A stretch of DNA of 46,015 bases, from positions 1 through 46,015 of IMG/VR virus record IMGVR_UViG_3300035126_000575; one strand, given 5' to 3'. The notes under the pieces are model-generated. The model saw only the letters and a program-made list of their open reading frames with translations. It was not told where the DNA came from and did no database searches. The position numbers were made by a program, and so were the translations under genes. This DNA is from a virus. This document shows, piece after piece, positions 14,770-40,705 of the stretch; position 1 is the stretch's first letter, and each line of letters begins with the position of its first letter.

Positions 14770-15183
14770 ATGGCTAAAAAAGCGTTAGGTTTAAAATTAC
14801 CAATTACTCTGGGTCAAGATGGATACTTTCAGACCAATTCTTTGACTGCGGATCAATTGTCTTCAAATATTCAAAACCTATTGTTGACCAAACCAGGCGA
14901 AAGACGATTCAATAATGCATTTGGTTCAAGCTTATATGGATTATTGTTTCAAATGACCGACTTGGATGTATCAAAAGAAATCATTGTGGATGCGGTTCAA
15001 CGTGATGTTGATAAATTTGTTAATGGTGTGATTGTAAATGATGTAAAAGTTCAATTATCTAATGAACAAAATTTCACTGGAACAATTAATAATGATAAGA
15101 ATAAGATATTTATAAGCGTCGTATTTACTTATAATAATACGACCGCAACGACGGATGTAGCAATTTCAAACCCTAGAATCTGA
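14770..15183 (+). CDS. 25: Baseplate wedge protein gp25-like
   Basis: The 137-residue product belongs to the GpW/gp25 family, small proteins that join the sheath to the baseplate wedge and nucleate sheath assembly. The diagnostic stretch LLLTKPGERRFNNAFGSSL (about 37-55) is present, with the conserved P-G-E-R in place. The downstream part (ISVVFTYNN) matches the family's beta-strand end. Its length is like T4 gp25 (132 residues). Its stop overlaps the start of gp6 (TGATG), so the two are translationally coupled. Confidence 0.93.
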   Translation: MAKKALGLKLPITLGQDGYFQTNSLTADQLSSNIQNLLLTKPGERRFNNAFGSSLYGLLFQMTDLDVSKEIIVDAVQRDVDKFVNGVIVNDVKVQLSNEQNFTGTINNDKNKIFISVVFTYNNTTATTDVAISNPRI

Positions 15184-17162
15184 TGTCAGAAATAATTAAC
15201 AAAACGTTTAGAACAAACACAAAGGATGTTAACTATGTGAATAGGGATTTCACATCTTTAAAACAACAACTTATTGACTTCACCAAGCAGTATTATCCGT
15301 TGTCATATAGAGATTTTAGTGAAAGTTCTCCAGGTCAGATTTTTATTGAACAAGCCGCATATGTTGGTGATGTATTATCATATTATACAGATCAACAATT
15401 TTTAGAAAGTTTTATCCAATTTGCTGTTGATCGTAGAAACATTATTAACTTGGCTAAATTCCTCGGTTATAAGCCAAAGGTGTCATCTGCATCATCAACC
15501 GATGTTGATATATTTCAATTAATACCTTCTATACAAACAACCAATAACGAATATATACCAGATGAACGTTATGCGTTGATATTAAGACCATTTACTCAAC
15601 TATCAAGCATAAGTGGGGTCAATTTTATAGTTGAAGAAAGTGTAGATTTTACACAAGACACATTATTCTCACCAAGAGAGATTAGTGTATTCAATAGAGA
15701 TGCAACTGGCGCACCACAATTCTTCTTACTTAAGAAATCAACCAAAGCTTATTCCGGCACCATCGTAACTAAACAAGTAAGTGTTAATGCAGCTACTCCA
15801 TTTTTGTCGATTAAGTTGGATGAAACAAATGTATTGAAAGTTGTTAGTGTGGTTGATAGCAATAATAACAACTATTACGAAGTTGACTATCTAGCACAAG
15901 ATACAATTCCACTAAAAGTTGATAATGTTCCACTTACAAATCAAACATTGTCAAAGTATAGAGGCGAAACTCCAAAAATTCTTAAATACTTAAGAACTGA
16001 AAAAAGATTCGTAACAACAATCGACGAGAATAATTTTACATATATTCAATTTGGTGCAAATACTGAGAATTTTGAAAACACGATTGTAGTTCCAAATCCA
16101 ACAAATGTTGGCGTTGCATTATCTAATCTTAAGAATCTAAATATTAGCTTAGATGGTACAAATGTACTAAAGAGCAATTCTTATGGTGTGTCTCCTTCCA
16201 ACACAACATTAACAATCACATATATAATCGGTGGTGGTGTTAATTCAAATGTAAATTCAGGTGATATAAGTAAAATATCAGCAACATCTTTTCAAAATGA
16301 CACAACTGGTTTGACTGATAGTGAAATATCATTGTTGAACAACATTAAAAACTCTTTGAGAGTAAATAACAATGAAGCTTCAACTGGTGGAGATGATGCA
16401 GAATCGGATGAAGAAATCAGACAAAATGCTATTCTGAACTTTTCTTCTCAAAACAGAATGGTTACTCAAGATGACTTTTTGTTAAGAGTATATGCTCTTC
16501 CTCCAGATTTGGGAAACATAGCCAAAGCTTATGTTCAAAGTAACCTAACACAACAAGTTACATACAATGGATTAGTTTCTGGTATAACAACCATTGATAA
16601 TAATCTAAATGTCGATTTAAATCCAATTAATCCATTGGATAGAAGAAAGTTTTTGGAATCAAATAATCCATTTACAAACAATTTATACTTATTGGGTTAT
16701 GATGCAAATAAAAATTTGACAACGATCAATCAAGCTACACTTCAAAACTTGATTACTTACGTAAAAAATTATAGAATATTAACCGATAAGATCAATATAA
16801 TTGATGGATTTATAGTCAACATCGGTGTGGAATTCAAAATATCAGTATTCCAAGGATTTAATAAACGTGATGTTTTAAATAATTGTATTCAATCTGTTAA
16901 ATCATTTTTTGAAATTGATAAGTGGAGTTTCAATCAACCAATCAATCTCAGTCAATTAAATTTTGAAATTATGAAGGTTGAAGGAGTCCAATCTGTTACT
17001 GATATTAAGGTAAAAAATTTAACCATTGATGATGGCAATTATTCTCCAGTTGCTTATAACATCAGTATCGCCACTCAAAACAATATTGTGTATCCTTCAA
17101 AAGATCCATCAGTATTTGAGGTTAAATATCCAAACTCTGACATAAAAGGATTGGTAGTCTAA
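15183..17162 (+). CDS. 6: Baseplate wedge protein gp6-like (baseplate J family)
   Basis: gp6 forms the iris ring of wedges that drives baseplate opening. The 659-residue product matches T4 gp6 in size (660). It starts with the typical NYVNRDFTSLKQQLIDFTKQYYPLSYRDF and then SSPGQIFIEQAAYVGDVLSYYTDQQ, the core of the family. The C-terminal half has the baseplate-J-type segment (NNEASTGGDDAESDEEIRQNA, MVTQDDFLLRVYALPPDLGNIAKAYV). It overlaps the gp25 stop by one base and is followed one base after its own stop by the DNRLRE protein. Confidence 0.93.
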   Translation: MSEIINKTFRTNTKDVNYVNRDFTSLKQQLIDFTKQYYPLSYRDFSESSPGQIFIEQAAYVGDVLSYYTDQQFLESFIQFAVDRRNIINLAKFLGYKPKVSSASSTDVDIFQLIPSIQTTNNEYIPDERYALILRPFTQLSSISGVNFIVEESVDFTQDTLFSPREISVFNRDATGAPQFFLLKKSTKAYSGTIVTKQVSVNAATPFLSIKLDETNVLKVVSVVDSNNNNYYEVDYLAQDTIPLKVDNVPLTNQTLSKYRGETPKILKYLRTEKRFVTTIDENNFTYIQFGANTENFENTIVVPNPTNVGVALSNLKNLNISLDGTNVLKSNSYGVSPSNTTLTITYIIGGGVNSNVNSGDISKISATSFQNDTTGLTDSEISLLNNIKNSLRVNNNEASTGGDDAESDEEIRQNAILNFSSQNRMVTQDDFLLRVYALPPDLGNIAKAYVQSNLTQQVTYNGLVSGITTIDNNLNVDLNPINPLDRRKFLESNNPFTNNLYLLGYDANKNLTTINQATLQNLITYVKNYRILTDKINIIDGFIVNIGVEFKISVFQGFNKRDVLNNCIQSVKSFFEIDKWSFNQPINLSQLNFEIMKVEGVQSVTDIKVKNLTIDDGNYSPVAYNISIATQNNIVYPSKDPSVFEVKYPNSDIKGLVV

Positions 17163-24027: not shown

Positions 24028-24666
24028 ATGGCATATTTAGACAACAACGTTCTTACGGTAAACGCGATACTTACTAAGAAGGGTAGAGAAATCCTAGCAA
24101 AAACCGGTGGTTTAAACATCACTGCATTTGCTTTAGCTGATGATGAAATCGACTATACTCAATTCAACCCAAATCATCCACTTGGTAGCGCATACTATGA
24201 TATAGCTATTCGTAATACACCTGTGATGGAACCAATTACCGATGAGTCTCAATTGATGAAATATAAGTTGGTAACATTGAATGATGGTGTAACTGCGGTG
24301 CCTACAATCAATTTGAACATTTCTTCTATAAACGTACCAAGAGATTTTACTGGAGAAATATTGTTGAGTCCAAGTACTAATCCAACTTACAACGTAACAT
24401 TGGGTTATACCGCAATATTATCAAATAAGAACGTAGGCACGTTGGTTGTAACTGAAACTAATAGTATCAATTCTTCTACAGCAACTATCCCAACATTTGC
24501 TGGCGATTTGGCATCCAATACTTCACAGGCTGTAGTTGGTAATAAGTTTAGATTTATTCCAAACGCTTCTCTAGCAAAGACTACCACAACAAACATTACA
24601 ATCATTGGTAATGAAAGTGGTGGTAATACCGCAATCAACGTTACCGTAACAGTACCAACAACTTAA
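24028..24666 (+). CDS. Virion structural protein (LTKKGRE family, 212 aa)
   Basis: The N-terminal half carries the pattern NAILTKKGREILAKTGG, then ITAFALADDEIDYTQFNPNHP and AYYDIAIRNTPVMEP, which recurs in uncharacterised structural genes of marine T4-like phages. The C-terminal half (from about 90) is a Thr/Ser/Asn-rich Ig-like beta region. It has TA-rich sequence instead of a ribosome site before the ATG and is followed closely by the adhesin-like set at 24673. Probably part of the tail tip or fibre network; the exact place is unknown. Confidence 0.7.
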   Translation: MAYLDNNVLTVNAILTKKGREILAKTGGLNITAFALADDEIDYTQFNPNHPLGSAYYDIAIRNTPVMEPITDESQLMKYKLVTLNDGVTAVPTINLNISSINVPRDFTGEILLSPSTNPTYNVTLGYTAILSNKNVGTLVVTETNSINSSTATIPTFAGDLASNTSQAVVGNKFRFIPNASLAKTTTTNITIIGNESGGNTAINVTVTVPTT

Positions 24667-24672
24667 TAAATT

Positions 24673-25767
24673 ATGATATTTAGTCAATTCACAAAAGATG
24701 ACATCGTAGCGGGTAGAATTAACCAAGTTTCATCTGGATTATTTGGATCTGGGGATTTGCAGGTTAGTCAATCTCTTTTTACAACATCATCTACACAGGG
24801 TCGTCAATTGACCGGATCATCACCTTATGATGTTAAGAATGGTCAATACTACCTGGATGTTTATTATAGCAGTGAACAATATTTTGCAGTCGCATATGGC
24901 GACTATGCAAATACAGGTAGTTCACAATATGATAGTCCTAACTATTCTGTGCCTGTATTGACCAATGAAACAAAGGTCATTTATACACAATACAAGAATA
25001 CATTGCTACAACCAGGCGATACACTATTTAGTTTTGCTTCTGGTAGTGTAGATAATCCAGTTGATAGTGAAGCACTATTTGCAGTTAACTTTTCAGCCGA
25101 TAAGTTTAAAGATCAAGTTGACCCAGGTCAAATTCAATTAAATTTAAGCGGTGCAAATGGAATTTATTCTTTCATCGATGATTCACAAGTTGTCAATAAG
25201 TCTCTTAGTGTATATAATATAATTTCAGGTTCTATCATCAATGGTGTACCAACTCCATATTTAAAGTCTGGTACTGTACAATATGAAGGAATTGGTTTGT
25301 TTTATCCAACAAATGGCGTAGTTGTTTTAAATGCCATAAATTTACAAAAACGTGTAGGAATTAATTCTCAAATTGCAAATAGAGCAGGTTTTCCAAATTC
25401 AACATCTACAAACGTAGATGGTCACTGGAGAGTATGGACAAGAGACTTTTTTAAGGCACTAAAAGGAACAAGCAAATTGATGAGTGTACGAAAGAGTGAA
25501 TTTGTTCCATCCACAAATTATTTCGTTCGCGTCAAGAATAAAGAGTTTAATTATAGTAACAACCCAACATTTGTATCAGATGGTACTGATGGACAAACAA
25601 AAGGTACAATCATTTATCAAGATTTGATAAATAATCCTCGTACTTATATTACATCCGTTGGCTTATACGATACTAACAACGAACTATTAGCAATTGGTAA
25701 GTTGAGTCGTCCAACACAAAAATCGTTTGATAATGAATTGTTGATTAAAGTTAGAATTGACTTTTAA
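24673..25767 (+). CDS. Tail protein, undivided paralogue of the 25798/26475 pair
   Basis: The 364-residue protein begins MIFSQFTKDDIVAGRINQVSS. It contains LFSFASGSVDNPVDSEALFAV and PGQIQLNLSGANGIYSFIDD, and ends with EFNYSNNPTFVSDG, YITSVGLYDTNNELLAIGKLSRP and a final strand. The first motifs reappear in the 226-residue protein at 25798 and the last ones at the C-terminus of the 818-residue protein at 26475. It is therefore the compact version of a scaffold that is split and enlarged downstream. The ITSVGLY-xx-N-x-L-L-AIGKLS ending is a common closing motif in phage tail proteins. It is presumed structural; no enzymatic motif is seen. Confidence 0.7.
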   Translation: MIFSQFTKDDIVAGRINQVSSGLFGSGDLQVSQSLFTTSSTQGRQLTGSSPYDVKNGQYYLDVYYSSEQYFAVAYGDYANTGSSQYDSPNYSVPVLTNETKVIYTQYKNTLLQPGDTLFSFASGSVDNPVDSEALFAVNFSADKFKDQVDPGQIQLNLSGANGIYSFIDDSQVVNKSLSVYNIISGSIINGVPTPYLKSGTVQYEGIGLFYPTNGVVVLNAINLQKRVGINSQIANRAGFPNSTSTNVDGHWRVWTRDFFKALKGTSKLMSVRKSEFVPSTNYFVRVKNKEFNYSNNPTFVSDGTDGQTKGTIIYQDLINNPRTYITSVGLYDTNNELLAIGKLSRPTQKSFDNELLIKVRIDF

Positions 25768-25784
25768 TTATCAATAAATCTTCC

Positions 25785-25792
25785 TATTTATA
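25785..25792 (+). promoter_or_regulatory. Late-promoter-like box TATTTATA
   Basis: The box lies in the 30-base gap before the 226-residue gene, five bases from its ATG (25798). This is the same arrangement as at 8042, 10608 and 45322. Confidence 0.4.
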
Positions 25793-25797
25793 TTAGG

Positions 25798-26478
25798 ATG
25801 ATTAAATTTTTCAAAAACGAAGACATACTTGTTACTGCATTCTCTGTAGCGTCTACACAGAATGTCAATAACATTGTTACCGATTTGATAGCTGGAAATG
25901 ATTCAAACGAATATTTTCCAATATTAATATTCAACGACGAGTGTGATTATAATGTATCCGGAAGTTGTGAACCAAACTCTTCCAATCAATCATATTTAGC
26001 TGAGTCTCAGTATTCAGGCGTAATTCCAAACTTTGAAATTGGAAAATATATCACATCCAGCGTTGTATTTTATCCAAAAGATAGTGAGTTTTACAATGTA
26101 AAAACTAATCCTACAAATTCAGTTGGAACATATCAAGGACAAGTTTATAATACTATCAAACGAATGTATTATAACAATTACAATAATGGATATGATATAT
26201 TTGGATTTGATGGATATGATACATCAAAGGCTAAATTGAATTTAACAAATGAATTTTCTTTATTTAGTTTTGCATCTTCTCAAGCTGGGGATCGTATCAG
26301 ACCAGGTTCAGTTCGTATAAATAATCAAAGTGGAGATATAATTGGATATATCGTAGATGATAAAAATTATAACCTCTATTTATCTGGAAGTTACTTCATT
26401 AATTATTTCGGTTATAATTCCGATAATAGTGGGTTAATTAAAAAAGGAACTTACGGATTAGCAAGTGTAATATCATGA
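25798..26478 (+). CDS. Tail protein resembling the N-terminal half of the 24673 product
   Basis: The 226-residue product aligns by eye with the start of its upstream neighbour: MIKFFKNEDILVTAFSVAS against MIFSQFTKDDIVAGRINQVSS, and FSLFSFASSQAGDRIRPGSVRI against the LFSFASG/PGQIQL region. It stops before the scaffold's second half, and the next gene starts inside its stop codon (ATGA at 26475-26478). The matching second half is at the end of that next gene. It looks like the detached N-terminal half of a split protein, probably assembling with the 818-residue partner. Confidence 0.7.
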   Translation: MIKFFKNEDILVTAFSVASTQNVNNIVTDLIAGNDSNEYFPILIFNDECDYNVSGSCEPNSSNQSYLAESQYSGVIPNFEIGKYITSSVVFYPKDSEFYNVKTNPTNSVGTYQGQVYNTIKRMYYNNYNNGYDIFGFDGYDTSKAKLNLTNEFSLFSFASSQAGDRIRPGSVRINNQSGDIIGYIVDDKNYNLYLSGSYFINYFGYNSDNSGLIKKGTYGLASVIS

Positions 26479-28931
26479 GTCTTACTAACATATATAACGA
26501 GAGATACGGAACTTCTGTTGCAGCGAACGATAATTACATAGCTGTCGGAAACCCTCCAACCTATGATTATAATCCAGCGGAGGGATTTTATAGAATTGGT
26601 GAAGTTAAATTGATTAAAAGAGACACATTTAATTCAAATTATTCATCATCATATACATTTACAAAAAGTTTAAACGCACAAACTATTTATAGCACTCGGT
26701 TTGGTGAATCAGTGGATTTATCTGATTACTTTTTAGCTGTAGGTAATAGTGTATTATCCGCAAGTGTTACAAAAGGTTCCTTTGTTGATGTTTATGTTAT
26801 CGACTCCAATTACAATGTTGTGAGTGGCGCTCTCGTACCGGATAACAATTGTGTAGATGAAAGCATTAACACACAAACTTATTCAAACACACCATTAGTC
26901 ACACTTACCGGATCAAATTCTTTTGGTACATCTGTTAGTATAACCAATAAATACCTTGCCATCGGATCTCCATCTGAAAATAGCAATCGTGGTAGAGTTT
27001 ACATTTATCAATTTTCTGCTTCTAAATACAAATTGGAATCTGTTCTGACTCCAGATCCAACTTTATACCCTAAACAACGAGGTTTTGGATATTCTATTTC
27101 GTTGGATAAAAAGAATCAAAATAGAATTGTTATTGGAAGTAATCAATTGTCTCAATCTAGAGTATATCTATATCAATCGTCATCCGGCGGTTGGGGATTA
27201 AAGCAAACATTTGTGCAAGTGACAGGATCACTTTCTGTTGAAAATAGCGTGTTCAATTGGTATCCAGTGTCATTGTTAAATTCTAACTATGGCCAGTCAG
27301 TTTCTATTTATGATAAGACCCTTGTAGTTGGATCACCAAATGATTTGGTTTATTATGAATACTCAGGATCAAATATTCAAAGACAAAGAGGCGCTTTTTA
27401 TGTATATTCTACAAATCCGTGTGATGAAAAACCAACCGGTAGTTACAATTTAATATCAAAACTTTATGGCGACGAAAACACATTCAAAGATAATTTGTTA
27501 GGACAATCTGTATGTGTGTTTGAAAATAAGATATTAATTGGTTCTCCAAAGAGATACTCCCCATTCTCCTCGCTTTTTATATCTGGATCTTTAAATTTTT
27601 ACGAAAACATTTCGGACGCAAATGATTTTGGAGCGTCAACTTTCTTAGGTCAAGTATTATACTATTCGATCACAGGATCTAGCTTAGTCAAAATGACCGA
27701 TTATCCGATTTCTAAACGTAAGGAAAGTGATAATAGTCCATTTCAAGCATTTGGAAGTGCCGTTTCAATCTATGGAAATAATTTGGTAATAGGATCTCCT
27801 GTACCATTATTGAGAGATTATTATTTAAACACCCCATATATTACAGAATCTGGAAGTATGGCGGATGCTAATTATAAACTAACATCTTCTTATTATGCCG
27901 AAGGATGTGATGTTACATCAAGTGTAGTATTTCTTCAAATAGAACAATCGGTCACTACAGATACAGGAGCTCCTGTGTATGTTGCACTATGTGAGGAAGT
28001 TCCTGATTCGCCATATACAGCAATTGAAGGAAGTGCTTTTATTTATAATTCATCCGATCTTCAAAAGAATTTTAACGTTGGAAATGTATTTTACAATAAT
28101 AACCGCGTTGTTATCAACAATACCGGAAGTGGTTTAAACTTAATAGCTAGAAATCCAGCTGATCCTACCAAGTCATACATATACATGGATTATGAAAGTC
28201 TCATACAACTAAATGAAAAACAATATATATGTACCATCGAACCAGGAGAGTTTAATATTTCAACAAATCCAACAGCTGTAACTGGCAGTGTTATTAACTA
28301 TGGTATTGTTAATAACACTGATTTTGATTTCAACAATTTAGATTTGATTTTAAGATACATAAACTATAAGTTGACTTCACCAAGAAGCGAACAATGGTGG
28401 AATAATATGGTATCAGGTGATGTTGAAACAAGCATTTTGTCTTTTTATTCTGGATCGTATGATATTACAACTCCATACACAGGATCTTATATTCAAGGAT
28501 CAAGATTCCAAGATAACAAATTAACTGAAGGCTTAAAGTGTATATTGGCTACAAAATCTTATGATGTTAATGGTGATGGTAAAGTAGATTTTCAAGATGG
28601 TAATGCTATTTGGAAATATTTTATTAATAATCTTACATTTCAAAATTATCAGAATTATACAAATCCAAATAGTAAGAGAAATACATACGATAGTATGATT
28701 AAGTTTTTGGATAATAACACTGGTAAAGGCAATAGAGATTATATAAAGAAAGAATTTTTCAATTACCCATATAGTTCATCCATCGATCCAACTGGCTCTT
28801 ATTTGGCACCATATATTACCCAAGTAGGTTTGTATAGCGGTGCAGATTTAGTGGCAATAGCTAAATTGGCACAACCAATTAAAAATAGTGGTGAGTTGCC
28901 TATTAATATTGCTGTTAAATGGGATACTTAA
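26475..28931 (+). CDS. FG-GAP beta-propeller adhesin-like protein with dockerin-like loop
   Basis: Seven FG-GAP-type blades are visible at about 11, 76, 150, 204, 272, 342 and 426 (YGTSVAANDNYIAVGNP, FGESVDLSDYFLAVG, FGTSVSITNKYLAIGSP, FGYSISL, YGQSVSIYDKTLVVGSP, LGQSVCVFENKILIGSP, FGSAVSIYGNNLVIGSP). They form an integrin-alpha-like seven-bladed propeller. Residues 697-708 (DVNGDGKVDFQD, then GNAIWKYFI) are a textbook dockerin/EF-hand calcium loop. The last 40 residues (ITQVGLYSGADLVAIAKLAQP) and EFNISTNPTAVTG (592-604) match the end of the 24673 protein. The start overlaps the previous stop. Host-surface binding is the likely job, inferred from domains. Confidence 0.82.
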   Translation: MSLTNIYNERYGTSVAANDNYIAVGNPPTYDYNPAEGFYRIGEVKLIKRDTFNSNYSSSYTFTKSLNAQTIYSTRFGESVDLSDYFLAVGNSVLSASVTKGSFVDVYVIDSNYNVVSGALVPDNNCVDESINTQTYSNTPLVTLTGSNSFGTSVSITNKYLAIGSPSENSNRGRVYIYQFSASKYKLESVLTPDPTLYPKQRGFGYSISLDKKNQNRIVIGSNQLSQSRVYLYQSSSGGWGLKQTFVQVTGSLSVENSVFNWYPVSLLNSNYGQSVSIYDKTLVVGSPNDLVYYEYSGSNIQRQRGAFYVYSTNPCDEKPTGSYNLISKLYGDENTFKDNLLGQSVCVFENKILIGSPKRYSPFSSLFISGSLNFYENISDANDFGASTFLGQVLYYSITGSSLVKMTDYPISKRKESDNSPFQAFGSAVSIYGNNLVIGSPVPLLRDYYLNTPYITESGSMADANYKLTSSYYAEGCDVTSSVVFLQIEQSVTTDTGAPVYVALCEEVPDSPYTAIEGSAFIYNSSDLQKNFNVGNVFYNNNRVVINNTGSGLNLIARNPADPTKSYIYMDYESLIQLNEKQYICTIEPGEFNISTNPTAVTGSVINYGIVNNTDFDFNNLDLILRYINYKLTSPRSEQWWNNMVSGDVETSILSFYSGSYDITTPYTGSYIQGSRFQDNKLTEGLKCILATKSYDVNGDGKVDFQDGNAIWKYFINNLTFQNYQNYTNPNSKRNTYDSMIKFLDNNTGKGNRDYIKKEFFNYPYSSSIDPTGSYLAPYITQVGLYSGADLVAIAKLAQPIKNSGELPINIAVKWDT

Positions 28932-33943: not shown

Positions 33944-34933
33944 ATGAATATATCAGACACCATCATTGTTAAAAATAAAAAATTAAGTTTCACGATAAAT
34001 GACCACGGGGAGTTTGTACTTTATAAGGACGATGGTTTTAGTATCGAATATTTGATTCTAATAAAAAGTTTAGATACAGGTTTAACATCGAATATGTTAT
34101 ATATAAACATGTCTGATCATTGTGTTAGTTGGACATATAATTGGTGTGTAAAACCAGCAACATTAAAAAACAATCATCCAGGAATAAAATTAGAAATTTA
34201 TTATTATGATCATGATAGAAATGTAAATTTAATTTATAAAAAAAACTATCGATTTGATTTAACTCGTTTAGATATTAAACTCAAATCAAATCAATATGAT
34301 ATCGCATACGATCCATTTTTTTATTTTTTATATGATCAGGAATTCAAGTCGTTGTGTAATATTAAAGAAGATGATATAGTTTATGATTTAGGCGCTAATA
34401 TAGGATCATTTTCGTTGGTTTGTAAAAACTTTGATGTTAAAAAAGTATATGCTTTTGAACCAAACACATCGACATTTGATTGTCTCGTATATAATACAGA
34501 TAGATATGGTGAAAATGTTACATGTTTTAAAAAAGCAATATCAAATTCATTTAAAAAAGTGTCATTTGGAAATTATTCGAATAATAATTTAGAGGATAAA
34601 ACATGTGGTTGTTCAATTGTAACCGATGATAAAAATCTAGAAACAGTATCCGCTATAAATCTTGAGTTATTTACATATGCAAATGAGCTTGAATTACCAA
34701 CATATCTTAAAGTTGACATAGAAGGTGCTGAATATGAATTTTTTGATTCAATCAGTGATACTTTTTTAAAAAATTGTCATACTATATTTTTAGAATTTCA
34801 TGACAGAGATGACAGATTAAATAAAATTATTGACAGATTAACTATGTTAAATTACAAAATGTTTTTTCATGGTGATGAAAAGTATGTATTAAGCCAGACT
34901 ATGGGAACTATATTTTTTGTTAAACAATTATGA
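33944..34933 (+). CDS. FkbM-family methyltransferase with N-terminal beta module
   Basis: FkbM enzymes O-methylate sugars or polyketides with S-adenosylmethionine. Residues about 147 onward hold DIVYDLGANIGSFSLVCKNF (the SAM-binding loop), VYAFEPNTSTFDCL, and then TYLKVDIEGAEYEFFDSI and IFLEFHDRDD, all diagnostic of the family. The first 120 residues are a separate beta-rich module (IEYLILIKSLDTGLTSNMLY, HCVSWTYNW) that resembles modules in the neighbouring genes. It is the first gene of the cassette, and its stop overlaps the next start. The target is probably a sugar made or attached by the downstream glycosyltransferases. Confidence 0.87.
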   Translation: MNISDTIIVKNKKLSFTINDHGEFVLYKDDGFSIEYLILIKSLDTGLTSNMLYINMSDHCVSWTYNWCVKPATLKNNHPGIKLEIYYYDHDRNVNLIYKKNYRFDLTRLDIKLKSNQYDIAYDPFFYFLYDQEFKSLCNIKEDDIVYDLGANIGSFSLVCKNFDVKKVYAFEPNTSTFDCLVYNTDRYGENVTCFKKAISNSFKKVSFGNYSNNNLEDKTCGCSIVTDDKNLETVSAINLELFTYANELELPTYLKVDIEGAEYEFFDSISDTFLKNCHTIFLEFHDRDDRLNKIIDRLTMLNYKMFFHGDEKYVLSQTMGTIFFVKQL

Positions 34934-36921
34934 AGAAGTTACTATTCATCACACCACATTTATCAACTGGTGGATTGCCACAATTTTTGTTAAAAAAAAT
35001 ACAAGCACTAAATGATTATTATGAAATACATTGTATAGAATATAATGATCATACAGGAGGTGTATTGGTTGTTCAGAAAGAACAAATTCAAAAGTTGTGT
35101 AATAACAGATTTTATGTATTAGGTGAAAATAAACACGATATATTGAAATTAATAGATAAAATAAATCCCGATATAATTGCTTTAGAAGAAATGCCTGAAT
35201 ATTTCATGGATTTCTCCATTTCTTCTCAAATTTATAATGAATCGAGACGTTATTTCATAGTAGAAACTTCACATGATAGTAGTTTTAATCCAAATAATAA
35301 AGTGGTTTATCCTGATCATTTTACATTTGTGAGTAAATTCCAAGAAAATAATGTAAAATCTCTACCAGTTAAATCAAAAGTTATAGAATATCCGGTTGAA
35401 GTAAAAATACGCCAAAATAGAGAAGTTGGCCTTCAAAAATTAGGACTTGATGTTAAAAAAAGACATGTGTTACATGTTGGATTATTTACTCCAAGAAAAA
35501 ATCAAAAAGAATTTATTGAATATGCCAGATCGATGGAGAATGAGAATATACAATTCCATTGTGTTGGAAATATGGCGGATAATTTCAAATTTTATTGGGA
35601 ACCATTGTTAATTGATTTGCCTAAGAATGTAAAAGTGTGGGGTGAAAGAAAAGATGTGCACAACTTTTATAGTTGTATGGATTTATTTTTGTTTACCAGT
35701 AGAGGTCACATAAATGACAAAGAAACTGCTCCCATCGTAATCAAAGAAGCAATATCATATAACATACCAAGTTTATTTTATAATCTTCCTGTATATCTGG
35801 ATCGATACTCTTGTTATGAAAATGTAAAATATTTGAATGAAACTAGTTTTGATGATAATTTAAATTTAATACGTGATACAATATATGGTTCTAAATCGTC
35901 TGTAAATGTAGATGACAAAGATTTTATAGCAGTTATTTCTACTCATCCAAATTATGATGCTGTCGAAGAAACCACTATAAAATCTATTAAACAAATTAAA
36001 AAGGCTGGATATAAAGTTATTTTAACATCACACTATCCAGTCAGTACTAAATTACAATCATTAGTTGATCATTGTATATATGATAGTAATAATCCATCTT
36101 TGACTCATAATTTTTATAAAACGTGGTCTTATGTAAATCAATATCACGATATTAAAATATATCTACCATCGTGTGGATCGGATGTATATCATGGATTGGG
36201 TGTAGCTCTAAATTATTATAATGGGATTAGTTTGGCTAATAAGTTAGGATATAAAAATGTGCTTGCGTTTAACTATGACGTAGTTATTTTAGAAAAAGAC
36301 TTCAATAAGTTAGATATTGTAAAAAATATAATGCAAACAAAAAAGGGATTTTTCTTTTATGATAAAGCTTTAGAAGGAGACACACTAAAGACCGTATTTC
36401 ATGCTATTAATACAGACTTTTATCTTAACCTATTTGAATACTTCACACCAAACACGTATGAGAAATTTGTTAAGGAAATGAACATATCAAATGGTCTTGA
36501 ACAATTTTATTACAATCGTGTTATAAATAAAAAGAAAGATTTATATATTGATTATAAAAATAATGAAGAGAGTTTTTTCAACAATAGTGAACTTAATATG
36601 TTTTCTATGTGTGAATATCTATCAGTTTTACCAATTCCAAATCAAAATAAGTTTGTATGTTTGAGCAACTTTAATAATAAAATAGATAATAAAATAAATG
36701 AGATATGCGTTTATGAGAATGATATTTTAATCAAACGAGAATTTGTACAAATAACAAAATCTGGTTGGTGGCATATAGAGGTTGATTTTATTCCAAACTG
36801 CCGGTATAAAGTATTGAATACGATTTTTGACAAAGACAAATCAAGTATTATAAGAGAAATTTCATCCGAGTTTTCATCGATTGATGAATTAAAAAATAAT
36901 GGACATTTTATAGCTAAGTAA
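34930..36921 (+). CDS. Two-domain glycosyltransferase
   Basis: Residues 1-330 form a GT-B (GT4-like) enzyme: FITPHLSTGGLPQFLLKKIQ, VLHVGLFTPRKNQKEFIEYA, VKVWGERKDVHNFYSCMDLFLF and TAPIVIKEAISYNIPSLFY with the E-x7-E region. Residues about 335-560 are a second domain starting FIAVISTHPNYDAVEETTIKSI and containing LGYKNVLAFNYDVVILEKDF. It looks like a GT-A-type fold with an N-x-D where a DxD would be expected. The final 70 residues are a beta module (ENDILIKREFVQITKSGWWHIEVDF). Two linked transferases suggest successive sugar additions. The acceptor is unknown. Confidence 0.82.
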   Translation: MKKLLFITPHLSTGGLPQFLLKKIQALNDYYEIHCIEYNDHTGGVLVVQKEQIQKLCNNRFYVLGENKHDILKLIDKINPDIIALEEMPEYFMDFSISSQIYNESRRYFIVETSHDSSFNPNNKVVYPDHFTFVSKFQENNVKSLPVKSKVIEYPVEVKIRQNREVGLQKLGLDVKKRHVLHVGLFTPRKNQKEFIEYARSMENENIQFHCVGNMADNFKFYWEPLLIDLPKNVKVWGERKDVHNFYSCMDLFLFTSRGHINDKETAPIVIKEAISYNIPSLFYNLPVYLDRYSCYENVKYLNETSFDDNLNLIRDTIYGSKSSVNVDDKDFIAVISTHPNYDAVEETTIKSIKQIKKAGYKVILTSHYPVSTKLQSLVDHCIYDSNNPSLTHNFYKTWSYVNQYHDIKIYLPSCGSDVYHGLGVALNYYNGISLANKLGYKNVLAFNYDVVILEKDFNKLDIVKNIMQTKKGFFFYDKALEGDTLKTVFHAINTDFYLNLFEYFTPNTYEKFVKEMNISNGLEQFYYNRVINKKKDLYIDYKNNEESFFNNSELNMFSMCEYLSVLPIPNQNKFVCLSNFNNKIDNKINEICVYENDILIKREFVQITKSGWWHIEVDFIPNCRYKVLNTIFDKDKSSIIREISSEFSSIDELKNNGHFIAK

Positions 36922-36923
36922 TT

Positions 36924-39065
36924 ATGAAAATAGTACAAGTACATTTAGGTTTATTGCCAATTCCACCAAATGGTTGGGGAGCCGTTGAGAAAATTATTTG
37001 GGATTATCATCAACAATTAAACTCTAAGGGTTTACATTGTGAGATAAAGTATTTGAATGATGTTAAGTATAATGATAATACAATTGTACACACACACGTT
37101 GCAAACTTAGCCAACGAGTGTTATGAACGTGGTATACCATATATCTTCACATTACATGATCATCATGCGTTTTTATATGGAAAAGATTCTGATGTTTTTA
37201 AACAAAATTTAAAGGCTATAGAAAATAGTATTATATCAACCTGTCCAGCAAAATATTTGGTTGATTATTTCGGAAGCAAAAAGTTGCGTTATTTTTCTCA
37301 TGCTGTAAATACTAATTTATTTAAATTTAAAAATTATGTCAAGGGTGACTACAAACTATTATGCGTTGCTAATAATGGTTATGCTAATAACCAATCATAT
37401 GACAGAAAAGGGTTTAAATACGCAATACAATCTGCTAAAGAGTTAAACCTTCCTATTACAATTGCTGGGCCTAGTAATAATAAAAAGTTTTTTGAAACAC
37501 TTGACCCATCATTAAATGATTATGAAAAGTTAACTAAAGTGTTTGATTTGGATGAAGATGGACTCATTGAACTTTATAATAAACACCACATATTTATTCA
37601 CGCATCGGAGTTGGAGGCTGGACATCCAAACTTAACTCTATTGGAAGCTATGTCATGTGGATTACCTGTAATTGGTACGTTTGAAAATAATAAATACGAT
37701 GGAATGATTGTTGTTGATAGGGATGTAAATCAGATTAAAGATTCTATTGTTAAAGTAATTTCGAACTACGAACAATATCAATCTGAAGCTTTAAAAGCCG
37801 CTACGAACAATTCTTATAATATACGTGTTGATCAATTGATAGATTTATATAAAGAATATACAAGTAAACTATTTGCCAAAAATTTTATTGATGTATATTC
37901 TGACTTAAATAAGAACATGATTAAGGTTAATAATAAAGTTAACGTTGAATATTCATTCAATGATAATGCATTTGTACAAGTTACTAAGTGTGTTAATAAA
38001 AATGAAACATTCAATGTCAAATTTAAGAATCCTACAACCGATGAAGTTCTATATGAAACCAATTTACAAGATGGTTGGTGGGGTCGTTGTGATTATACAT
38101 ATTTTATTCCATACAATTTGGTTGTTAAAAGTAATTTAACAAACGATATTGTTTTAAACTACGATTTGGATCTTGAGGATAAAAATGTTTTAATAGAATA
38201 TGAAACCAACGCATTAGGCGATCAATTGTGTTGGATGCCGATAGCTGAACAATTTAGAAAAAAACATAAATGTAATTTATTCTTAAAGATAAGGCTCCGT
38301 GAATTATTTCAAAATAAATATAAAGATATAAATTTTATAAATTTTGATGAATCTGTTCCTAACTTATTTGCAACATATAAACCTGGGTGGTATGTTGATA
38401 AAAATTCTATAAATTCAATGAGATGTAGAAATGATATCAGAAAACAACCTTTACAAAAAGTTGCTAGTGACTATTTGGGTTTAAGTTATATTCCAGAAAG
38501 GCCAATGTTGGATTTTAAATTAATGCCATCGCAATTTAAAAAACCATATGTTACTATTGCAACTCAAAGTACAGCACAAGCGAAGTATTGGAATCATAAG
38601 GGTGGGTGGGATATAATAGTAGGTTATTTGAAATCAAAGGGATTTGATGTAGTGTGTATAGATAAAAATAGTTCATTTGGAAATAAGAATCATATGAATT
38701 ATATACCAGACAATGCTATTGATTTAACAGGAAATCATTCTTTGGAAGAACGTATTAATCAGATCTATCATAGTTCATTTTTTATAGGTCTTCCATCAGG
38801 ATTATCATGGTTAGCTTGGTCAATAGGAAAGCCTGTAACATTAATTAGCGGATTTTCTCATGATTATACAGAATTTGAAACTCCATATAGAGTTCAAAAT
38901 AAAAATGTGTGTAATGGATGTTGGAACGATAATTATTTTGACAGAGGTGATTGGTTATGGTGTCCAAAATCCGATAAAAAGGAAATGTTTGAATGTACAA
39001 AATCAATTACTCCACAAATGGTTATAGAAAAAATTGATAGTCTTATAAAAGATAATAATTTATGA
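36924..39065 (+). CDS. GT4 glycosyltransferase fused to autotransporter-type heptosyltransferase
   Basis: Residues 1-330 are a GT4 enzyme: LLPIPPNGWGAVEKIIWDY, HTHVANLANECYERG, and SELEAGHPNLTLLEAMSCGLPVIGT. A beta module follows (about 345-415: NPTTDEVLYETNLQDGWWG). From about 420 the protein matches the BAHT family (TibC/Aah-type protein O-heptosyltransferases): VLIEYETNALGDQLCWMPIAEQ, TIATQSTAQAKYWNHKGGWD, IGLPSGLSWLAWSIGKPV, and the C-terminal cysteine motif C663, C666, C680, C691 (VCNGCWND, WLWCP, FECTKSITPQMV). In TibC these four cysteines hold iron. Family members transfer heptose to serines of autotransporter repeats. The gene lies within the tight cassette. Confidence 0.85.
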   Translation: MKIVQVHLGLLPIPPNGWGAVEKIIWDYHQQLNSKGLHCEIKYLNDVKYNDNTIVHTHVANLANECYERGIPYIFTLHDHHAFLYGKDSDVFKQNLKAIENSIISTCPAKYLVDYFGSKKLRYFSHAVNTNLFKFKNYVKGDYKLLCVANNGYANNQSYDRKGFKYAIQSAKELNLPITIAGPSNNKKFFETLDPSLNDYEKLTKVFDLDEDGLIELYNKHHIFIHASELEAGHPNLTLLEAMSCGLPVIGTFENNKYDGMIVVDRDVNQIKDSIVKVISNYEQYQSEALKAATNNSYNIRVDQLIDLYKEYTSKLFAKNFIDVYSDLNKNMIKVNNKVNVEYSFNDNAFVQVTKCVNKNETFNVKFKNPTTDEVLYETNLQDGWWGRCDYTYFIPYNLVVKSNLTNDIVLNYDLDLEDKNVLIEYETNALGDQLCWMPIAEQFRKKHKCNLFLKIRLRELFQNKYKDINFINFDESVPNLFATYKPGWYVDKNSINSMRCRNDIRKQPLQKVASDYLGLSYIPERPMLDFKLMPSQFKKPYVTIATQSTAQAKYWNHKGGWDIIVGYLKSKGFDVVCIDKNSSFGNKNHMNYIPDNAIDLTGNHSLEERINQIYHSSFFIGLPSGLSWLAWSIGKPVTLISGFSHDYTEFETPYRVQNKNVCNGCWNDNYFDRGDWLWCPKSDKKEMFECTKSITPQMVIEKIDSLIKDNNL

Positions 39066-40705
39066 AAATTGTAGGAAGTTATATCGGCGCGCATGATGTG
39101 GGTTTTTCTTTAATTGAAAATAATCAAATACTTGCGTGTTATACAGAGGAGAGATTTTCACGTATAAAATCTGCATATGCTGCTGGAGCATTTCCATCAC
39201 ATAGTTTTGAAGCAATTCAAAAAGATTTTGATTTTGATATAAAGGATCCAAACGTAAAATTCGTAGTCGCAAAGCCTTTTATTCATCATAAACATCATGA
39301 GATTATAAATGTATTAAAAAATAAAAGTATAAAATTAATAGGACATCATTACTCACACGCATGTGGCGCATACTATACATCTGGATTTAATGATAATACA
39401 TTAGTTGTATCATACGACGGTGGTGACATAGGAGATGATAATTGGACTGAATTGAATATTTCTAACTATCAAAAGTACAATTGGTTCAATAATTTAAATG
39501 ATAATCAATCAGTATCATACGTAGTTAAAAATGGTAAATTGATTGAAGTAGGTGAAAGACTAAAACACGGAAGTATTGCAAATATGTGGTATTTGATGTG
39601 TTATATATTTGGTTTAACTCCATTAAAGGACGAAGGAAAAATAATGGGTCTCGCTGCACAAGGTAAGTTTGATCATAAAATTCATAGTATATTAAATTTC
39701 TTTGTTAAGAATGATATGATAAAGGCGACTTGTACCATTGAAAATAAATTTAAACAACTTTTACATGGTTTAAATCAAGAAGACGCTTTGGATTTAAAAA
39801 GAAATTTAGCGTATAATTTACAATATATTACAGAAAATACTCTTTTAAATCATATTAAGTCTTTGTATGACCAATATGGTCCATTTGATAATATTTGTTT
39901 AGCAGGCGGTGTATTTGCAAATGTAAAGTTAAATCAAAAAATAAATGAATATCTACCATTTAAAAATATATGGGTATATCCAGCGATGGGAGATGAAGGA
40001 TTGTCTTTGGGTTCCGCAATTGCATATGGAGTAGAACTTGGAGAATTTACAAATCGTAGAATTAAAAATGTTTTTTTTGGAAAAAAACACTCTGAGAACG
40101 ATATACAAAAAGATATTAATAATTTTTCATTCAAGTTTGGTAAAAACATAGTAGAAGAAAAATTAGACTTTGATAATGTTGCGAATTATTTAGTTGATGG
40201 AAAGGTCGTTGGGATTTTTGATGGAGCAACTGAGTATGGACCAAGAGCATTAGGATCTAGATCTATAGTTGTTGAACCAACTAGATTAGAAACGCACGCG
40301 TATATTAATAAAAGATTAAAACGAGATGAGATAATGCCATTTGCACCAATCATTATGGAAGAACATATTGAGGATATATGTCACGTATATAAATCTAAGA
40401 ATACCGCCGAATTTATGACATTGTGTTATACCGTTCGTGAAGAATGGGCCAACAAAATTCCAGCAGTCATAAATTTTCATGATAACACTGCTAGACCACA
40501 AGTAGTTAATAAAGATCGTCACTCTTTATTTCATAAAATACTTAGCAAATTCAATGAAAAAACAAATATACCGGTATTGATGAATACAAGCTTTAATGGT
40601 CATGGTGAACCTATAATAAATTCACCAAACGATGCTCTGTCTCACTTGTCGGAAGGTACTATTGATTTATTGATCATAAACAATAAAATTTATAAACTAG
40701 TATGA
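39062..40705 (+). CDS. Carbamoyltransferase (NodU/CmcH/TobZ family)
   Basis: These enzymes move a carbamoyl group from carbamoyl phosphate, through carbamoyl-AMP, to a hydroxyl of a sugar or antibiotic. The 547-residue protein has both domains. The N-terminal Kae1-like part has GAHDVGFSLIENNQILACYTEERFSR, the HHYSHACGAYYTSGF metal site, VVSYDGGD, LAGGVFANVKLNQKI and GDEGLSLGSAIAYG. The C-terminal YrdC-like part has FDGATEYGPRALGSRSI, NKRLKRDEIMPFAPII, RPQVV and NTSFNGHGEPI. Length and motifs are complete. It overlaps both neighbours by four bases. In this context it probably carbamoylates the sugar built by the glycosyltransferases. Confidence 0.93.
   Translation: MKIVGSYIGAHDVGFSLIENNQILACYTEERFSRIKSAYAAGAFPSHSFEAIQKDFDFDIKDPNVKFVVAKPFIHHKHHEIINVLKNKSIKLIGHHYSHACGAYYTSGFNDNTLVVSYDGGDIGDDNWTELNISNYQKYNWFNNLNDNQSVSYVVKNGKLIEVGERLKHGSIANMWYLMCYIFGLTPLKDEGKIMGLAAQGKFDHKIHSILNFFVKNDMIKATCTIENKFKQLLHGLNQEDALDLKRNLAYNLQYITENTLLNHIKSLYDQYGPFDNICLAGGVFANVKLNQKINEYLPFKNIWVYPAMGDEGLSLGSAIAYGVELGEFTNRRIKNVFFGKKHSENDIQKDINNFSFKFGKNIVEEKLDFDNVANYLVDGKVVGIFDGATEYGPRALGSRSIVVEPTRLETHAYINKRLKRDEIMPFAPIIMEEHIEDICHVYKSKNTAEFMTLCYTVREEWANKIPAVINFHDNTARPQVVNKDRHSLFHKILSKFNEKTNIPVLMNTSFNGHGEPIINSPNDALSHLSEGTIDLLIINNKIYKLV

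Follow-up and report, generated by a model that had tools for sequence, protein, structure and literature searches.

We analysed a 46,015-base virus fragment from IMG/VR (record IMGVR_UViG_3300035126_000575, hereafter the window), in which a 226-amino-acid (aa) protein and an 818-aa protein, encoded next to each other and directly downstream of a 364-aa protein, appear to be the two pieces of a single scaffold protein of the phage tail. Judged by profiles and trees, the 364-aa protein and the pair belong to two ancient, tandem, paralogous families of putative tail-scaffold proteins of Far-T4-like phages (here types A and B), the pair being the split orthologue of B, which is a single uninterrupted open reading frame (ORF) in most relatives. 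The 818-aa protein carries an FG-GAP propeller at the break, and as the best explanation of the whole we consider it probable that the halves of B reassemble in trans and display this propeller as a host-contact module on the tail. The window is called Far-T4-like because its closest annotated relatives by scaffold genes (Rhodothermus phage RM378, Flavobacterium phage immuto and Microcystis phage Mel-JY01) include RM378, a cultured Far-T4 phage (PMC4360716). The three ORFs and their ATGA overlap are as an initial annotation, made from the letters of the DNA, had described them, and the parts of the locus are:

24673..25767, + strand: type A scaffold protein, 364 aa, an uninterrupted paralogue (family alignment A3; AlphaFold (AF2) model with pLDDT 84 and pTM 0.75; homologous to compact B over 132-363)
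25798..26478, + strand: N-half of the split type B scaffold, 226 aa (compact-B profile 35-148 at aa 88-198, E 7e-9)
26475..26478, + strand: ATGA stop/start overlap at the split (from the sequence; identical junction in L007, L008, L063, L077 and L180, other spacings elsewhere)
26475..28931, + strand: C-half of the split type B, 818 aa, with propeller, scaffold strands, dockerin-like segment and scaffold C-terminus (compact-B profile 149-217 at aa 529-627, E 4e-12, and 225-288 at aa 756-818, E 1e-15)
26505..28058, + strand: seven-repeat FG-GAP propeller, repeats starting at 26505, 26700, 26922, 27084, 27288, 27498 and 27750 (Pfam FG-GAP_2 and repeat HMM; outer limits approximate)
28059..28289, + strand: scaffold resuming past the propeller (...NVGNVFYNNNRVVIN...EFNISTNP; compact-B profile from position 149)
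28290..28784, + strand: second insertion, dockerin-like, with the calcium loop DVNGDGKVD at 28563-28589 (weak Dockerin_1 match, two loops conserved in relatives; limits approximate)
28785..28931, + strand: C-terminal scaffold segment common with A (PYITQVGLY...AKLAQPI; direct, profile and family matches)

The initial annotation had matched the N-terminus of the 364-aa protein to the 226-aa protein and its C-terminus to that of the 818-aa protein. The C-terminal match is direct (39 aa, 44% identity, E 7e-5) and recurs when family is compared with family (probability 97.2%, E 4e-11), whereas the N-terminal one is not significant directly and becomes firm only through compact, i.e., insert-free, B relatives. 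In profile comparisons these compact B proteins matched the 226-aa family (family level, probability 99.4%, E 1.9e-21), the C-part of the 818-aa protein (99.9%, E 1.4e-32) and A (99.8%, E 4.5e-29). Since one shuffled control reached a probability of 99% with the full compact-B profile, the comparison with A was redone on N- and C-parts separately, with the columns fixed and with E-value and score as the measure: the two N-parts matched (probability 92%, E 5.8e-7, score 48.7 versus a best of 20.4 in 40 column shuffles), as did the two C-parts (99.8%, E 4.6e-30, score 173 versus 19.3 in shuffles), and crossed pairs of N-parts with C-parts gave no match between A and compact B. An alignment of compact together with insert-bearing B proteins (A1) was misaligned, so a compact-only profile of 288 positions was used in its place; in the full-length alignment A4 the first repeat of the split forms was misplaced. 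Both scaffold segments of the profile are found in order in the window, positions 35-148 in the 226-aa ORF and 149-217 plus 225-288 in the 818-aa ORF. The annotation had seen a real relation, although sequence alone does not warrant every step that led to it.

It had further taken the pair for a duplicate broken at an internal point. The scaffold is duplicated and the break does lie where the propeller sits, but the pair did not arise by breakage of a copy of the 364-aa gene. In trees, the window pair groups with B and not with A, and trees of the shared C-terminal parts place A and B on opposite sides of one branch (support 98 in one, 100/99 in the other), so that the duplication is older than all sampled phages carrying both. 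The B gene lies directly downstream of the A gene in the window and likewise follows an A gene in the relatives.

The compact-B profile splits the insert-bearing proteins at one gap (N-pieces ending mostly at 146-149, C-pieces starting mostly at 146-150), and this gap is the same in forms with a LamG domain, with an unsplit propeller and with a split propeller (between model positions 148 and 149). It maps to residues 134-138 of the compact B protein L222, a turn between the predicted strands 131-133 and 139-144. By state at this site the census comprises 85 compact, 10 LamG, 5 unsplit propeller and 70 split propeller loci, counts that are not equal to independent phages as some contigs were fetched twice; an enlarged N-half is present in 12 of the 70. 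Compact B proteins are 276-417 aa long and the unsplit propeller forms (L184, L188, L191, L194 and L195) 1048-1126 aa, and Pfam detected LamG in L079 (E 4.9e-18) and FG-GAP_2 in L184, L188 and L195 (E 1e-24 to 1e-29). The unsplit and the propeller-free relatives for which a search had been proposed in the initial annotation therefore both exist. Its statement that a propeller and other domains were inserted at the break is right for the seven FG-GAP repeats; the other domains amount to a dockerin-like segment at a second site (~28290-28784), an insertion near the C-terminus that is found in the propeller forms.

Both halves of the broken gene are retained. They are present in the 70 split loci of the census; of 13 chosen contigs, 12 have both, up to ~7-10 kb apart, and in the thirteenth the N-half lies <2 kb from the contig end. 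When the window is compared with three close relatives, the ratio of nonsynonymous to synonymous substitution rates (dN/dS) is 0.05-0.09 for the N-half and 0.07-0.14 for the C-half, next to 0.04-0.11 for A and 0.06-0.11 for a neighbouring 1481-aa gene; neither half is decaying and both are under purifying selection.

The C-terminus of the N-half, once freed, has gained modules in sister phages, which is the behaviour that would be expected of a display site. The N-half carries RCC1 repeats in L189 (E 1.9e-36) and MBG domains in L176 (E 3.4e-36), and PKD domains with leucine-rich repeats (LRR) occur in L192 (PKD_4, E 2.1e-51), where the C-half falls beyond the contig so that the split state is not shown. 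In eight further loci (L009, L034, L042, L043, L051, L056, L057 and L061) the N-half bears a long stalk, rich in Pro/Thr or Pro/Thr/Ser, that ends in a Cys-containing domain, and in L009 and L015, which share 76-83% identity with the window, the stalk comes right after the residues aligned to the 226-aa protein. Several of the stalk-bearing phages have glycosyltransferase genes between the halves, including PF11397 and PF04488.

Two arrangements of this kind deserve mention on their own. In L009 (2059-5045) and L015 (8129-11115) the N-half with a Pro-Thr repeat stalk of ~140 residues is followed by a PF04488 glycosyltransferase and then by a 182-aa ORF that reads by eye like a 2-oxoglutarate/Fe oxygenase and has no Pfam match; phage enzymes may modify the stalk in these two loci. 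In other phages with Pro/Thr-rich stalks, PF11397 (GlcNAc transferase) genes lie between the halves (L042 10851-13466, L043 10664-13267, L051 11593-12846 and L056 9948-12647), and known members of PF11397 act on hydroxyproline.

We propose that type B uses a tight beta-hairpin turn as a display site. An FG-GAP propeller, whose ends lie close together, would have been inserted into this turn of an unbroken gene in the ancestor of this phage clade, a large and uncultured T4-like group. The gene would later have been cut at this turn, N-terminal to the propeller, which would thus have come to open the C-half. Since the predicted domains appear to draw strands from either side of the split, the two polypeptides most likely bind to each other and would so restore the scaffold, at the baseplate or at the tip of the tail, with the propeller held outwards as a host-contact module, most likely touching the host cell. 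The split would also have freed the C-terminus of the N-half, at which sister phages carry a second module. A wider claim, that a naturally split beta-scaffold reassembling in the virion turned one display turn into two display ends (the propeller on the C-half and an exchangeable RCC1, MBG, PKD/LRR or Pro/Thr stalk module on the N-half) and serves as a general two-ended adhesin platform in Far-T4 phages, seems to us evenly balanced between right and wrong.

The initial annotation stood or fell with a fold shared by the compact protein and the two ends. Such a fold is suggested by the predicted models of A and of compact B (L222, 276 aa; pLDDT 79, pTM 0.67), which have the same element order, i.e., N-terminal strands, a 13-residue helix, a series of strands surrounding the insertion site and, at the C-terminus, three long strands, and by the alignment of the families. 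Foldseek found no match to the models of A and compact B in the PDB at E 0.001 or better, and a second structural comparison was weak, its best Z being 5.0 for A and 5.4 for B, where Z below 8 is not decisive. The top rows for A were phage baseplate or tail chains (9f4a, 5hx2 and 9h4p; root-mean-square deviation (rmsd) 2.2-2.6 over 72-73 residues, low Z), namely with 9f4a_Aa of the Klebsiella phage KP1 baseplate at Z 5.0 (not decisive) and with 5hx2_B of the T4 baseplate (334 residues) at Z 4.1 and rmsd 2.6 over 73 residues (not decisive); 334 residues is the length of T4 gp8, a baseplate wedge protein. The weak alignments of compact B either run over 17-174, past the split turn, or pair its N-terminal with its C-terminal end, and if these low-Z alignments are right, both predicted domains would need strands from both halves. 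The Dit fold was not among the matches listed for the A and B models, which does not exclude it. Searches of PDB sequences gave nothing credible with the profiles of A and B and chance matches only with the 818-aa protein, Pfam matched the A family at chance level only, and Phage_tail_fib (PF12571) matched 2 of 46 compact B proteins weakly (best E 0.08). Two baseplate-wedge family matches lie upstream in the window, at 14770-15183 (phrog_43, E 8.7e-8) and 15183-17162 (phrog_219, E 8.1e-16).

A number of results speak against our explanation or parts of it. By BLASTP, the 226-aa protein met A at E 0.03 (not significant), and did so at residues 154-188 against 134-170 of A, away from the N-terminus; the profile comparison of its family with A gave a probability of 1.9% (not significant). 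PHROGs gave no function for A, B and their neighbours, and neither PHROGs nor Pfam offered one for A and B. The proposed contact between the halves comes from alignment ranges with low Z (at most 5.4). Integrin-type calcium motifs (DxDxDG-type) are absent from the propeller repeats, the sole one in the 818-aa protein lying at position 697, outside the propeller. Finally, an A-only tree rooted with RM378 has its root beside the split forms and would reverse the order of events.

The halves might instead have undergone complete sub-functionalisation, the N-half and the propeller-bearing C-half being independent tail proteins at different places with no rebuilt domain, which would suit both their separation by up to ~7-10 kb in several relatives and the large modules of its own (RCC1, MBG, PKD/LRR, Pro/Thr stalk) that the N-half can carry. 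We nevertheless regard this as unlikely, as the scaffold segments flanking the split are still recognisable on both sides, neither half is missing wherever a contig is long enough to tell, and the predicted compact fold uses both sides.

In the predicted propeller that reassembly in trans would place on the tail, FG-GAP_2 (PF14312) scores 81.5 bits against a cut-off of 23 (E 4.8e-23), and a repeat HMM finds seven repeats at the sequence level. The Pfam FG-GAP family scores 16.7 bits, below its cut-off of 22.1. The initial annotation had concluded that a phage gained an integrin-like adhesin; the repeats number seven as in integrins, but the label is overstated because the propeller is without the integrin-type calcium motif. 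In the dockerin-like segment, two loops are conserved in relatives, and Dockerin type I (PF00404, Dockerin_1) scores 15.0 bits in the window, below the cut-off of 22.9, and 23.6, above it, in the same segment of L195. A literature search on FG-GAP with phage tails found nothing relevant. It is conceivable, if improbable, that the propeller is a structural spacer or a module for assembly or lysis and not an adhesin: the calcium motif is missing, and in one comparison its dN/dS of 0.11 is barely above that of the scaffold (0.08-0.09), with no sign of fast receptor-driven change. Set against this are the lectin-like LamG domains at the same site in other phages and the freed end, which carries RCC1, Ig-like, PKD and LRR modules as a display site would.

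Regarding the order of events, the comparison supports a passage from compact form to propeller insertion and then to the split, in which insertion and break appear as separate events at one site. That they were one event, as the initial annotation had it, is not borne out, since B is unbroken yet propeller-bearing on five contigs. Mapped on a tree of 111 A proteins, the propeller requires one change of state and the split two (one in the propeller clade of 18 rows, support 99, and one in the doubtful L082), and a five-row clade with the unsplit propeller forms is the sister of the split propeller clade. L082 (351+205 aa) and L060, which may be genuine additional breaks or the result of frameshift errors, were not counted as evidence. 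With A as the root, the B tree has the compact forms on the outside and the split forms in a nested clade (98/99), with the unsplit propeller forms beside it.

The series from split propeller through unsplit propeller to compact and LamG forms can, when unrooted, be read both ways, and a split propeller gene could be ancestral, its fusion and the subsequent loss of the propeller giving the unsplit and compact forms, as the RM378 rooting would have it. We set that rooting aside owing to the extreme long branch of RM378 (3.44), and since the A-rooted tree nests the split forms and no A gene in the set is broken or propeller-bearing, the reversed order is disfavoured and seems to us quite improbable. 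That the two ORFs are an assembly or sequencing artefact (a false frameshift), or a programmed frameshift of one gene, is barely credible, as the 4-base ATGA overlap could come from a single false indel but the two-gene state recurs in 70 loci from many metagenomes, and a frameshift product is excluded by junctions that vary in the split clade from -4 to +66 nt, or to several kilobases where genes entered between the halves. The same variation removes the suggestion that ATGA is a scar of the insertion.

Parts of the proposed route, with the scaffold as display site and its split into two display ends, have precedents. Among siphophages that infect Gram-positive hosts, evolved Dit proteins take up carbohydrate-binding modules in the loops of a tail-tip scaffold (PMC7291167); as in type B, a conserved scaffold stays constant and the insert varies, whereas no Dit similarity was found here among the matches listed, the phages here are T4-like and contractile, the inserts are propellers or LamG, and the gene was then split at the insertion site. 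In phages DT57C and DT571/2, two linked receptor-binding proteins, LtfA and LtfB, replace the single Ltf fibre protein of T5 (PMC4728585). There too the single protein of a relative is represented by two, in an inferred branched dual-receptor device; but LtfA and LtfB are fibre proteins with tested receptors, and in B a predicted scaffold domain is cut inside a hairpin with both pieces kept. The split B case combines these two ideas at one site, in an unrelated and unnamed family. The propeller of integrin alpha chains likewise has seven FG-GAP-type repeats, and the window differs in matching FG-GAP_2, in falling below the FG-GAP cut-off and in its propeller being without the calcium motif.

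Other phages counted as Far-T4, immuto and Mel-JY01 by their shared scaffold genes, have A (RM378) or adjacent A and B (immuto and Mel-JY01); unlike in the window, B is compact in immuto and LamG-bearing in Mel-JY01, and in RM378 only A was found and no B. Mel-JY01 (L001, 11853-20799) has five tandem A/B genes, four A and one B, two of the A-type genes with long N-terminal extensions. In L003 (13444-14799 and 16560-17777), which is a phage record of 484 kb, the translations read as a GIY-YIG-like ORF between A and B and a TnpB-like ORF just after B.

The ordered intermediates (compact, insert, unsplit propeller, split, and split with extra modules) suggest how a tail scaffold becomes an adhesin carrier. 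Far-T4 is an abundant aquatic phage group in which host-interaction genes of the T4 type had not been detected (PMC4360716). If the halves do reassemble, they would constitute a natural split-protein display system that keeps the scaffold separate from two independently evolving binding modules, and the A and B families would become markers for adhesin loci in Far-T4-like phages.

Elsewhere in the window, a conserved 212-aa protein with the motif LTKKGRE is encoded at 24028-24666, directly 5' of A as in most relatives; its start resembles that of P2-type tail-collar fibre domains. The left end of the window has a transfer-messenger RNA gene (1528-1912, tag AEDNVVSYDFSYDDVVALAA) and eight transfer RNA genes within 19-1505. 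Farther to the right, at 33944-40705, there is a row comprising an FkbM methyltransferase, two glycosyltransferase-type genes and a carbamoyltransferase, perhaps for glycan synthesis.

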